From the NCBI RefSeq assembly GCF_004571025.1, contig NZ_SPQT01000001.1:496001-560000 (forward strand): a stretch of DNA of 64,000 nt, in the 5' to 3' direction. Each line of letters begins with the position of its first letter. Within the stretch, counting starts at the first letter, position 1. Origin of the DNA: Bradyrhizobium niftali (GTDB lineage: Bacteria; Pseudomonadota; Alphaproteobacteria; Rhizobiales; Xanthobacteraceae). Positions 11,861 to 26,516 of the stretch are shown piece by piece. Position numbers and translations under genes: made by a program. The notes under the pieces were generated by a model that did not search any database, was not told the DNA's origin, and saw nothing but the letters and a program-made list of their open reading frames with translations.

Positions 11861-12697
11861 TCAGTTCGTCGGTCCGTCGCCGCGGATCACGAATGTCGTG
11901 GCCTTCAGCTTGGTCATGCCGAACTTGTCGAACAGCTTGTCATAGGTGCCGTCGACGCGGATCGCGGTGAGTGCATCGGCAACGGCCTGGGCCAGCAGCT
12001 TGTCGCGGAAGGCGAAGGTGATGTCGGTGCCGGCGATGTCGCGGACCCAGATCTTTGCGATGCCCTTCTGTTCGAGCGAGTTGGCGGTCTCGTTGATGTT
12101 GAGCGCGGCCTCGAGCTGGCCGGCACGCAGCGCCGCCGAGGTGGCGGTGACGGTGGTGAAGGTGCGCAGCTCGACCGGCTTGAGGCCCTTGGCCTCCATC
12201 GCGGTGCTGAACTCACGTGCCTTGCGCTCGGTGTAGGTCGCCGATTCCACGCCCACCACGCGGCCGGCGAGATCCTCGAATTTCTCCAGCTTCAGGCTTG
12301 AGGAGGGATCGGTGTAGATGCTGATCGCCTGCTGCGCGTACGGCACGAGGTAGAGCATCTTCGAGCGCTCCTCGGTCCAGAACAGGCCGGTGTTGATGGC
12401 GTCGAAGCGACCCGAGCGCAGCGCCGGGATCATCGGCGGGAAGTCCATGCGCAGGAACACCGCCTCGACGCAGATGCGCTTGGCGATCTCGCGGGCGAGC
12501 TCGACGTTGAGGCCCTGCAACTCGCCCTTGTCGTCGACGAATTGCTGCGGCGGCAGCGTCGGGTTGATCGACATCTGCCATTTCGGCGCTTCGATCAGGC
12601 TCGACGCCGGCACCTTCGGCGTACAGGTCTGGGCGCCGGCTGCCTGGGACAGGCCGATCAGCAGGGCGAAGGCGGAGAAGGTCTTGGGAAATCGCAT
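11861..12697 (-). CDS. ABC transporter substrate-binding protein, polar amino acid family (orphan)
   Basis: Periplasmic binding protein of family 3, 278 aa, with a signal peptide ending near GAQT. It has FVDDKGELQGLNVELARE and FWTEERSKMLYLVPYA, as in amino-acid and opine binding proteins. It is clearly paralogous to the protein at 23194-24030, which has the same length and shares the blocks INPTxPPQQFVD, LQGLNVELA and TEERSK. No permease or ATPase is encoded on this arm. It is 71 bp downstream of the MaoC gene at the distal end of the LacI-led operon, and probably delivers to the permease/ATPase encoded at 24043-25571. Confidence 0.87.
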   Translation of the reverse strand: MRFPKTFSAFALLIGLSQAAGAQTCTPKVPASSLIEAPKWQMSINPTLPPQQFVDDKGELQGLNVELAREIAKRICVEAVFLRMDFPPMIPALRSGRFDAINTGLFWTEERSKMLYLVPYAQQAISIYTDPSSSLKLEKFEDLAGRVVGVESATYTERKAREFSTAMEAKGLKPVELRTFTTVTATSAALRAGQLEAALNINETANSLEQKGIAKIWVRDIAGTDITFAFRDKLLAQAVADALTAIRVDGTYDKLFDKFGMTKLKATTFVIRGDGPTN

Positions 12698-12768
12698 CTG
12701 AATACTCCGATCAAATCGTGGGTGGCAGAGGAGCCGTTCTCCGGTCCGACGTCTTTTTCATTGTCTCG

Positions 12769-13257
12769 TCAAATGGCCGCCGTCGCGTCGCGATCGGCCT
12801 GCCTGGTCAGGATCAGCGAGGTGTGGCGGGCCGCCGTCACCACCTCGTCGCGCTGGTTGAGAAGGTCGAGCGTCTCGATGACGATGCCGCGCGCGGGATT
12901 CCTGGTCGGCCGCTTCTCGACGAAGCGGAAGCGGACGCGCAAGACATCGCCGGCGACGATCGGCGCCTTGAACCGCACCTCGTCCCAGCCGAGCGAGGCG
13001 ACCGAGGTCTCCTCGTACAGCTTCAGCTCCGACTTCAGTCCTTCCATCAGCGACAGGCCGAACAGCCCGTGGCCGATCACCGCGGGAAAACCGCGCGACT
13101 TCGCATAGCCGGCATCGACGTGGAGCGGATGATGGTCGTGCGTGACATCGGCGAATACCGCGATATCGGCCTCCGTCACGGTGTGCATGGCGGTCTCGAA
13201 CTCCGCGCCGAGCGCGATGTCCTCGTAACGGAGATTGATCGGGGCGCTGATCTCCAT
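12769..13257 (-). CDS. MaoC family dehydratase (enoyl-CoA hydratase type)
   Basis: Single hotdog-domain R-specific hydratase, 162 aa. The hydratase-2 motif is present in the form THDHHPLHVD, with Asp41 and His46 as the catalytic pair, followed by VIGHGLFGLS. It would hydrate an enoyl-CoA or dehydrate a hydroxyacyl-CoA made by the neighbouring CoA-transferase and dehydrogenase. It starts 10 bp after the CoA-transferase gene in the same operon. Confidence 0.85.
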   Translation of the reverse strand: MEISAPINLRYEDIALGAEFETAMHTVTEADIAVFADVTHDHHPLHVDAGYAKSRGFPAVIGHGLFGLSLMEGLKSELKLYEETSVASLGWDEVRFKAPIVAGDVLRVRFRFVEKRPTRNPARGIVIETLDLLNQRDEVVTAARHTSLILTRQADRDATAAI

Positions 13258-13267
13258 GCCGAATCCC

Positions 13268-24774: not shown

Positions 24775-25571
24775 GCGAGATATCGATGAATACGGCTAGC
24801 GGTGTCGAAGGCGCAACGGCGCAATCGCAATTGCGCGATGTGCCTGCGGTTCGTATGGAGGCCGTCTACAAGCACTATGGCGACTTCACCGCGCTGGACC
24901 AGGTCGATCTCAAGGTCGCCAAGGGCGAGAAGATCGTGGTCTGCGGTCCCTCCGGCTCGGGCAAGTCGACGCTCATTCGCTGCATCAACCATATCGAGAA
25001 GCACGACGAGGGCCTGATCTACGTCAACGGCGTCGAGCTCGATCATCAGCGCAAGAACATCGATGCGGTCAGGCGCGACACCGGCATGGTGTTCCAGAGC
25101 TTCAACCTGTTCCCGCACATGACGGTGCTGGAGAACTGCATCCTGGCGCCGATGACCGTGAATGGCATGTCGGAGGCGGAGGCAAAGGACCTCGCCATGC
25201 ATTTCCTCACCAAGGTCCGGATTCCGGACCAGGCCGAGAAATTTCCCGGCCAGCTCTCGGGCGGCCAGCAACAGCGCGTCGCCATCGCACGCGCGCTGTG
25301 CATGCGGCCGAAGATCATGCTGTTCGACGAGCCGACCTCCGCACTCGACCCCGAGATGGTCAAGGAGGTGCTGGAAACGATGAAGAAGCTCGCGGAGGAG
25401 GGCATGACCATGCTGTGCGTGACCCACGAGATGGGCTTCGCCCGCGAGGTCGCCGACCGCATCGTGTTCATGAACGAGGGCAAGGTCGTGGAGCAGGCTG
25501 CGCCGGAGGAGTTCTTCCAGCATCCGAAGTCCGAGCGGGCGCGGACGTTCCTCGACCAGATCATTCACTAG
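24771..25571 (+). CDS. ABC transporter ATP-binding protein, polar amino acid family (GlnQ-like)
   Basis: ATPase, 266 aa, with an N-terminal extension of about 25 residues before the domain. Walker A (GPSGSGKST), signature LSGGQQQRV, Walker B (IMLFDEPTSALD) and the switch His (CVTHEMGFAREVAD) are present. It energises the permease at 24043 and could serve both binding proteins of this locus. Confidence 0.9.
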   Translation: MSEISMNTASGVEGATAQSQLRDVPAVRMEAVYKHYGDFTALDQVDLKVAKGEKIVVCGPSGSGKSTLIRCINHIEKHDEGLIYVNGVELDHQRKNIDAVRRDTGMVFQSFNLFPHMTVLENCILAPMTVNGMSEAEAKDLAMHFLTKVRIPDQAEKFPGQLSGGQQQRVAIARALCMRPKIMLFDEPTSALDPEMVKEVLETMKKLAEEGMTMLCVTHEMGFAREVADRIVFMNEGKVVEQAAPEEFFQHPKSERARTFLDQIIH

Positions 25572-25574
25572 CCG

Positions 25575-26516
25575 ATGTCGAGCGGGATGCGGACATTCAG
25601 CGATCGCCTGCGCGGCATCCATGCCGCCACGATCGTGCCGATGACACCTGATTATGGGATAGATGAGGCGCAGCTGGCGGCGCATCTCGCCGCGGTTGCG
25701 TCCACGCCGGGCATCAATGGGCTGTTGGTCAACGGCCACGCCGGTGAGAATTTTGTGCTGTCGCTCGCCGAAAAACAGCGCGTGGTGGAGCTGGCGCGCG
25801 AGTACGCACCGAAAGACTGCCTGATCGTCTCTGGCGTCAATCACGAATCAAGCCTGGAGGCCGCGCGAGAGGCGGCTGTGCTGGAGCGGGCGGGCGCGGA
25901 CGGACTTCTGGTGTTCCCTCCCAACAGCTGGGCGCTCGGTCACGCCGATGACTGCGTCATCGCGCATCACCGCCATATCCGCGAAGCGACAACCGCACCC
26001 TTGATGCTCTACGCTGCACCAGTTGGTGCGGGAGCCATGGCCTATGCGCCGCCGCTGCTGGAGCAGCTCATCGCCGATCGCCGCTTCGTCGCAATCAAGG
26101 AAGGCAGCTGGGAGGTCGCGACCTACGAGCAGAATCTGAGGTTGATTCAGAAGCTGCGTCCGGAGTTCGTTGTGCTCGGCTCCGGTGACGAACATCTGCT
26201 GACAAGCTACCTCGTCGGTTCGGCCGGCAGCCAGGTCAGCCTCGCCTGCGTCGTGCCGGAGCTTGTCGTCAGCCTTTGGAACGCGGCAGAATCCGGAGAC
26301 TGGGAGCGGGCGCGCGCCGCGCACGAGAAGCTATATCCGCTTGCGGTCGCGATCTATCGCGATGCACCGGGAGGACGCGCGACGGTGCGGCTCAAGGCCT
26401 GCCTGAAATTGCTTGGGCGTCTCTCATGCGACGCGGCGCGACCGCCGCAGCCGCCGGCAATGGCGAACGAATTGCGGGCGCTGGAACAGGCACTTCGGAT
26501 CGCCGGCGCGCTTTAG
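25575..26516 (+). CDS. dihydrodipicolinate synthase family lyase 3
   Basis: Third DHDPS-superfamily protein of the locus, 313 aa. Lys175 (AIKEGSW) and Tyr146 (MLYAAP) are present, and the GTTGE motif is NGHAGENF as in lyase 2. It starts three bases after the ATPase stop and ends the rightward operon. Its stop codon overlaps the convergent monooxygenase stop (26513-26516). The presence of three paralogues in one operon suggests different steps or substrates rather than redundancy. Confidence 0.83.
   Translation: MSSGMRTFSDRLRGIHAATIVPMTPDYGIDEAQLAAHLAAVASTPGINGLLVNGHAGENFVLSLAEKQRVVELAREYAPKDCLIVSGVNHESSLEAAREAAVLERAGADGLLVFPPNSWALGHADDCVIAHHRHIREATTAPLMLYAAPVGAGAMAYAPPLLEQLIADRRFVAIKEGSWEVATYEQNLRLIQKLRPEFVVLGSGDEHLLTSYLVGSAGSQVSLACVVPELVVSLWNAAESGDWERARAAHEKLYPLAVAIYRDAPGGRATVRLKACLKLLGRLSCDAARPPQPPAMANELRALEQALRIAGAL

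Follow-up and report, generated by a model that had tools for sequence, protein, structure and literature searches.

Relation to described systems

Among described systems, itaconate degradation (Rip/Ict-Ich-Ccl), the carnitine (CaiB/CaiA) and glutarate (SUGCT) routes and hydantoin/dihydropyrimidine catabolism come closest to the locus that we analyze here, a set of 17 genes in two divergent operons of Bradyrhizobium niftali (contig NZ_SPQT01000001.1), contained in the 64,000-nucleotide stretch at positions 496,001 to 560,000, hereafter called the window. The itaconate route combines a CoA-transferase, a MaoC-type hydratase and a C-C lyase, in an order of roles that matches the locus. The hydratase L4 of the left operon indeed resembles RipB, but at 58.6 bits against the RipB cut-off of 340, and the locus has acyl-CoA dehydrogenases (ACADs) and lyases of DHDPS type instead; no HpcH/HpaI match, as expected of a CitE-type citramalyl-CoA lyase, was found among the 17 genes. 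Compared with the carnitine and glutarate routes, the locus adds a MaoC pair and the lyases. Its CoA-transferase R2 matches the succinate-glutarate and carnitine CoA-transferase models, far below their equivalog cut-offs (207.5 versus 750 and 94.8 versus 413), and the dehydrogenase R3 matches crotonobetainyl-CoA dehydrogenase (173.7 versus a cut-off of 540). Both dehydrogenases also match 3-sulfinopropanoyl-CoA desulfinase, with 275.4 (L2) and 223.3 bits (R3) against an NCBIfam equivalog cut-off of 600; on such equivalog cut-offs, the sulfinopropionate, itaconate and carnitine routes were rejected. With hydantoin catabolism, the locus has in common an adjoining hydantoinase that scores over the NCBIfam cut-offs, whereas CoA steps and lyases replace the simple carbamoylase step, and in the window the hydantoinase gene sits apart from the locus, in an operon that also encodes an ABC transporter and an AMDase-family protein. 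In the literature that we searched for the substrate, in which coverage of subscription journals was limited, we found no description of this locus.

We read the locus as two fused modules, under one predicted LacI switch, for the likely uptake and breakdown of an organic acid through CoA thioesters, and take the lyase R6 to be likely shared between them; we give this reading, which is drawn from comparative sequence analysis, a probability of about 0.55. The locus is a variant of familiar kinds of catabolic loci, and the chemistry of the R6 subfamily is probably unusual. It represents a well-bounded, widely conserved catabolic system of plant-associated and marine bacteria, and its natural variants, which have either module alone or both and occur with or without a LysR gene, make the logic of the system directly testable.

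Two modules of parallel, non-duplicate enzymes

Module A consists of the tautomerase L1, the ACAD L2, the family I CoA-transferase L3, the MaoC protein L4 and the canonical DHDPS-family lyase R1, and module B of the family III CoA-transferase R2, the ACAD R3, a degenerate and a catalytic MaoC protein (R4/R5), the EthD-like protein R7 and the lyase R11 (Table 1). The left operon, on the minus strand, runs in the order LacI, L1, L2, L3, L4, L5, and the right operon, on the plus strand, in the order R1, R2, R3, R4/R5, R6, R7, R8, R9, R10, R11. Going by coordinates, the genes within an arm are separated by less than 20 bases or overlap (R1 and R2 are 14 bases apart), with L4-L5 (71) and R7-R8 (about 100) as the exceptions. 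The main genes lie where the first-pass annotation of this DNA had placed them, and their families were confirmed above Pfam cut-offs: two SBP_bac_3 proteins, a CoA_trans (family I) and a CoA_transf_3 protein, two acyl-CoA dehydrogenases, the MaoC proteins, three DHDPS matches, a binding-protein-dependent (BPD) permease, an ABC ATPase and LacI. Its proline tautomerase, L1, retains Pro2 in 53 of 56 copies (the other three are gaps) but stays below the Pfam gathering score, and its EthD-like protein, R7, takes that name from resemblance only.

The two-branched layout is supported, and the description of the arms as mirror images holds for their parallel roles but not for their descent. The counterparts are not duplicates: the ACADs L2 and R3 are 33% identical, the MaoC proteins L4 and R5 35% over 83 amino acids and the binding proteins 49%, while the CoA-transferases belong to different families (I versus III). 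We therefore rejected an origin of the mirror image by duplication, as the arm enzymes are distant and another part of the genome holds a paralog more similar to R3 (57% identical, at C1:970499-971650, with no adjoining R6). Each arm does have a MaoC hydratase, but the right arm has two, the first of which lacks the catalytic Asp; likewise, all three lyases match the DHDPS family but are of two kinds, with R1 canonical and R6 and R11 of NGHAGE type.

L4 retains its catalytic Asp and His in 64 of 64 copies. L3 carries the Glu of the ExGxxGG motif, which we take to be the family I active site, in 47 of 49 (the remaining two are gaps), in agreement with its membership of that family; in R2, a family III member by the corresponding test, the Asp of PGQD, presumably the active site, is present in 73 of 73. 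The GSTGE loop of R1 is retained together with its catalytic residues (Ser in 54, Thr in 53, Tyr in 54 and Lys in 54 of 54), and the NGHAGE of R11 in 40 of 40 Bradyrhizobium copies. R4 has Asn at the catalytic Asp in 72 of 74 copies and Tyr for the catalytic His in 58 (His is retained in 16); R5 is likely its partner.

Table 1. Positions of the genes and predicted operators discussed in the text (window coordinates unless a locus is named).
Feature	Position	Strand	Support
Dihydropyrimidinase/D-hydantoinase	10307..11815	+	PRK13404 729.4 bits (cut-off 647); TIGR02033 515.3 bits (cut-off 393.25)
L5, family 3 solute-binding protein, module A side	11861..12697	-	PF00497 90.3 bits
L4, MaoC-type hydratase	12769..13257	-	PF01575 78.6 bits
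L3, fused family I CoA-transferase	13268..14851	-	PF01144 104.9 bits
L2, acyl-CoA dehydrogenase, YEGT motif	14868..16010	-	family match; YEGT in 64/64
L1, tautomerase-like, N-terminal Pro	16026..16394	-	sub-threshold PF14552, 23.7 bits (gathering 28)
LacI-family regulator, first gene of left operon	16398..17495	-	PF00356 49.8 bits; PF13377 105.4 bits
O1, predicted LacI operator, TGCAATCGATTGCA	17513..17526	.	lowest-entropy 14-mer of intergenic region
O2, predicted LacI operator, CGCAATCGATTGCA	17600..17613	.	87 bp from O1
R1, canonical DHDPS-family lyase, goes with module A	17683..18588	+	PF00701 213.1 bits
R2, family III CoA-transferase	18603..19793	+	PF02515 328 bits
R3, acyl-CoA dehydrogenase	19790..20953	+	family match; YDGT, Asp for Glu, in 74/74
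R4, degenerate MaoC	20965..21372	+	PF01575 31.6 bits; catalytic Asp replaced by Asn
R5, catalytic MaoC	21376..21807	+	PF01575 64.9 bits; Asp and His in 75/75
R6, NGHAGE-type DHDPS-family lyase, found with both modules	21804..22757	+	PF00701 117.6 bits (cut-off 22.1)
R7, small EthD-like protein, 100 amino acids	22769..23071	+	sub-threshold DUF4286 match only
R8, family 3 solute-binding protein, module B side, start codon uncertain	23170..24030	+	PF00497 94.6 bits
R9, ABC permease	24043..24774	+	PF00528 79.2 bits
R10, ABC ATPase	24771..25571	+	PF00005 129.2 bits
R11, second NGHAGE-type DHDPS-family lyase	25575..26516	+	PF00701 114.7 bits
LysR between R1 and R2	L122 7603-8520	-	likewise in L042, L046, L054, L058, L062, L063, L065

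Co-inheritance of the modules in Bradyrhizobium

The source genome measures 9.79 Mb, and the best relative of its R6, also from Bradyrhizobium, is 96% identical. R6 orthologs (at least 82% identity) were found in 46 of 265 Bradyrhizobium genomes, L3 in 44 and R3 in 42, and comparison of the lists places all L3 and R3 genomes inside the 46. The R6 genomes without R3 are three module-A-only genomes (G004, G005 and G157) and G183, whose locus (L066) lies at a contig end by its coordinates. G183 also lacks L3, as does G021, although direct reading of the G021 locus (L044) does reveal L3. Conserved co-occurrence is borne out, with 31 of 43 distinct Bradyrhizobium loci holding all 17 genes, 30 of them in the exact order. 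Of the remainder, seven lack only L5, because a gene inserted between R1 and R2 pushes L5 past the fetched stretch (for two of them, L144 and L146, L5 was seen in the left flank), two (L066 and L067) are cut by contig ends and three are without module B. Throughout, the loci L124, L125, L127 and L128, which repeat L074, L073, L068 and L072, were removed from the conservation counts; they were retained in the operator entropy and footprint and in the counts of the hydantoinase metal-binding Lys.

The three loci without module B, which are L073, L074 (B. algeriense) and L123, retain LacI and the complete left arm as well as R1, R6, R9 and R10, and lack R2-R5, R7, R8 and R11. Considering that R6, R9 and R10 are kept there, they likely serve module A too. 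In a tree of R6 built from 41 chosen rows of 86, the Bradyrhizobium copies join those of six B-only loci (Rhizobiaceae, Phyllobacterium and Paracoccus; 100/99). Within this clade of module-B type, the R6 of the three A-only Bradyrhizobium loci is placed beside that of composite locus L122 (90/88). The simplest reading of these sequences would be that module B was lost, and that R6 and the permease and ATPase were kept because module A needs them.

The modules outside Bradyrhizobium

Scanning named genomes for R6, with a profile built on the two peptide patterns [FL]VNGHAGE and [IV]AIKEGSD, returned 80 loci; the conservation of both pattern stretches is partly by construction. For the 43 loci outside Bradyrhizobium (L075-L118 without L082), genes were scored by tblastn with family-specific identity cut-offs, and a module was called when at least two of five A genes or at least three of five B genes were present. 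By this measure, 21 loci carry genes of both modules, 13 carry B only, seven carry A only and two (L080 and L097) are unclear. In the A-only loci, L2, L3 and L4 occur in all seven, R1 in six and L1 in five; in the B-only loci, R2, R3, R4, R5 and R7 occur in all 13, R11 in nine and R1 in none. In the 21 loci with both, module B is nearly complete, and the gene orders differ from that of the window. Partner genes outside the genus encode a hydantoinase, TRAP transporters, an HpcH/HpaI aldolase, DUF3830, LysR and GntR regulators, an AMP ligase and an enoyl-CoA hydratase. Two gene clusters from the neighborhood clustering (25 and 31) had no family match and were treated as probable wrong-frame calls.

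In seven of these loci (L075-L078, L083, L107 and L114), a pair of neighboring genes takes the place of the single family III CoA-transferase gene of the window; the members of the pairs are about 43-45% and 60-81% identical to R2, and possibly form a heteromer.

A predicted LacI switch and a LysR remnant

The regulator of the locus has a LacI-type helix-turn-helix and a periplasmic-binding-like effector domain, both above cut-off. Next to its gene lie O1 and O2, two TGCAAWCGWTTGCA-type sites. The identical-core palindromes of the first-pass annotation are confirmed: allowing up to two mismatches, they are the sole two matches in the window (0.28 expected), and 4 of 100 shuffled sequences had two or more. 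The exact 12-base core occurs nowhere else in the genome, and the relaxed motif, with one mismatch, occurs at five further places there. All 43 distinct Bradyrhizobium loci, the window included, have the two operators, at a spacing of 87 bp in 33 and 86 bp in 10; the bases between them vary while the spacing holds, and the first C of the O1 core is changed to G in six rows. Entropy over the footprint is 0.06 bits for O1 and 0.20 for O2, against a regional median of 0.52 (duplicate loci included), and all 84 matches of the operator motif in those fetched loci that were examined for it lie between the outer ends of LacI and R1. As far as a footprint can show, this supports the proposed control of both arms by LacI, which we predict binds both operators and loops the DNA. 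The arrangement is like that of LacI-type repressors with two operators and a DNA loop, in that two palindromes with a central CG stand at a fixed spacing beside the regulator gene; unlike in that type, the products of the predicted target genes would work on CoA thioesters and not on sugars.

Sigma-70 promoter searches were uninformative for this organism, with no site in 17400-17800 and two in the whole locus (1.8 expected), and terminator-like sites occur across the locus at chance level (8 versus 7.8 expected). One such hairpin with a T-run, on the minus strand and read leftwards, lies at 17619-17637 between R1 and O2, where 0.3 are expected.

An antisense LysR gene stands between R1 and R2 in 8 of the 39 distinct composite loci apart from the window (41 minus the duplicates L127 and L128); it is absent from this position in the window. 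The LysR of L122 is 84-87% identical to those of the other seven, and 60-77% identical to the LysR that diverges from R2 in L075-L079 and L081, which are B-only loci. The gene is probably left over from the joining of module B to the locus: module B probably arrived with its own LysR and later came under the LacI promoter region, as loss of LysR would have set R2 directly behind R1 and therefore probably under LacI. The remnant thus points to a stepwise takeover of one module's regulation by another.

R6 has altered active-site residues

Members of the DHDPS/N-acetylneuraminate lyase family (PF00701; e.g., 4-hydroxy-tetrahydrodipicolinate synthase) carry a GTTGE loop, in place of which R6 has NGHAGE. 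Its Schiff-base lysine, K173, aligns with the Lys of solved DHDPS chains and is present in 86 of 86 copies, partly by construction, as KEGS is part of the search pattern. In contrast to this lysine, the residues that we take to form the proton relay are lost: Phe replaces the catalytic Tyr in 85 of 86 copies, the other relay position has no Tyr, and His-Ala replaces Thr-Thr in 86 of 86 (again partly by construction of the search pattern). Phe145 and the invariant His268 and Arg270 lie outside both search patterns; the best-ranked solved chains are about 27% identical. Because DHDPS residues thought to be essential are lost while the lysine is kept, the chemistry of R6 may be new, or at least different from that of DHDPS enzymes.

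Clues to the substrate

We aligned R8 to solved amino acid binding proteins and transferred the positions to L5. In R8, the Arg that holds the carboxylate is retained, and Phe and Val occupy the Ser/Thr and Asp positions, which presumably contact the alpha-amino group; an Asp lies one residue further. L5 keeps the Arg of WTEER, and in 34 of 34 copies Phe and Ile occupy its amino-binding positions. Both proteins thus lack the amino-group contacts of family 3 amino acid binding proteins, making the amino acid substrate considered earlier unlikely. Based on this loss, the CoA enzymes of the locus and the TRAP transporters of its relatives, the substrate is likely to be a carboxylate that lacks an alpha-amino group.

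The limits first given to the locus, 11861..26516, omit the hydantoinase gene immediately to its left, which is in a separate operon and whose true start is probably further in than annotated. The Lys that we take to be its metal-centre residue is present in 38 of 38 copies (duplicates included). The hydantoinase accompanies 29 of the 43 loci outside Bradyrhizobium (3 of 7 with A, 8 of 13 with B and 18 of 21 with both); of the 46 R6 genomes of Bradyrhizobium, 42 have it, 29 of them within 50 kb of R6. It closes a plus-strand group of five genes at 7038-11815, preceded by genes for an NMT1-type binding protein, a permease, an ATPase and a member of the AMDase/Asp-Glu racemase family (9657-10394, of single-Cys type by eye); of 20 left flanks from other Bradyrhizobium loci, 5 have all five genes adjoining the locus. 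The link to a hydantoinase suggests a cyclic amide, imide or ureide as precursor of the substrate. The solved relatives of the hydantoinase, of R2, of the AMDase-family gene and of the TRAP binding protein of a relative were not close enough to name a ligand.

Proposed route and alternative explanations

In the proposed route, L5 and R8 would both feed the one permease and ATPase (R9 and R10). In module A, L3 would activate the acid, L2 would desaturate it and L4 would hydrate it, leaving the products to R1 and R6; in module B, R2, R3 and R4/R5 would take the same roles, and the lyases would be R6 and R11. LacI would bind O1 and O2, loop the intervening 87 bp and repress both arms until the substrate or an intermediate is present. 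Our best guess for the substrate would be a carboxylate without an alpha-amino group that arises when the hydantoinase opens a cyclic amide or imide. The full version of this scheme, in which the hydantoinase opens the ring, two parallel CoA arms follow and a rebuilt R6-type lyase performs a cleavage not known for the DHDPS family, is tentative.

Several observations weigh against a fused system with a shared R6. In the loci outside the genus that carry both modules, the fetched stretch often contains just a part of module A (L2 in 16, L4 in 16, L1 in 9, R1 in 5, the AMP ligase in 4 and L3 in 1 of 21), and all 43 of these loci were found via R6, so that its presence there is by construction. 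When R3 was used as the anchor in 385 genomes of the class, one match above 70% was found outside Bradyrhizobium, with R6 adjoining, and this was L080; a search of 39 genomes of the family around L080 gave no further R3-anchored locus. R3-like ACADs (54-57%) occur in four more loci, three without an R6 match and one with a 33% match. Outside the genus, six of the seven A-only loci have an R6 that belongs to another clade, so that the shared R6 may be an equivalent rather than the same activity, and the grouping of the A-only Bradyrhizobium loci with L122 (90/88) is below the star threshold. Among 20 Bradyrhizobium flanks, only 6 have the hydantoinase adjoining the locus, and a copy is also present in 114 of 219 genomes without R6. 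As for the end of the route, neither a thiolase nor a CoA-product lyase was found within the locus.

The existence of A-only (7/43) and B-only (13/43) loci, together with the LysR that module B once had, speaks against the single pathway proposed by the first-pass annotation, and could also mean that two pathways with unrelated substrates came to share a transporter and a regulator after a chance fusion. We consider this unlikely, given that 21 of the 43 loci in other genera carry genes of both modules, in other gene orders and with module A often partial, that the hydantoinase accompanies either module, and that R6, R9 and R10 stay where module B is absent. More doubtful still is a reading in line with the first-pass annotation, in which the arms process two isomers (stereoisomers or regioisomers) of a single substrate and end in a common product. 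The parallel roles filled from different subfamilies would fit this, with binding proteins 49% alike, two CoA-transferases, two ACADs and two MaoC systems, but no racemase or epimerase family was found among the 17 genes of the locus, the AMDase/racemase-family gene at 9657-10394 being only nearby, and many organisms hold just one module. Finally, R1 scores 210.5 bits on the dapA equivalog (cut-off 206.15), as would be expected of a lysine-type or sugar-acid DHDPS cluster with incidental CoA genes. However, the best of the 17 DHDPS-family matches in the genome (335.3 bits) lies outside the locus, R6 lacks the catalytic Tyr and Thr-Thr, and the CoA genes are conserved with the lyases, rendering this explanation highly improbable.

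Neighboring regions of the window

To the right of the locus, the minus-strand genes at 26513-31220 encode an NtaA/DmoA-type FMN monooxygenase, two ABC permeases, an NMT1 binding protein and a class II aldolase, and likely form another transport and catabolic operon. Further on, the plus-strand genes at 32098-46308 encode a GntR regulator, an SDR protein, two aminotransferases, an M20 peptidase, an ATP-dependent hydantoinase A/B and an AMP ligase; this is a second hydantoinase-type region within the same window.

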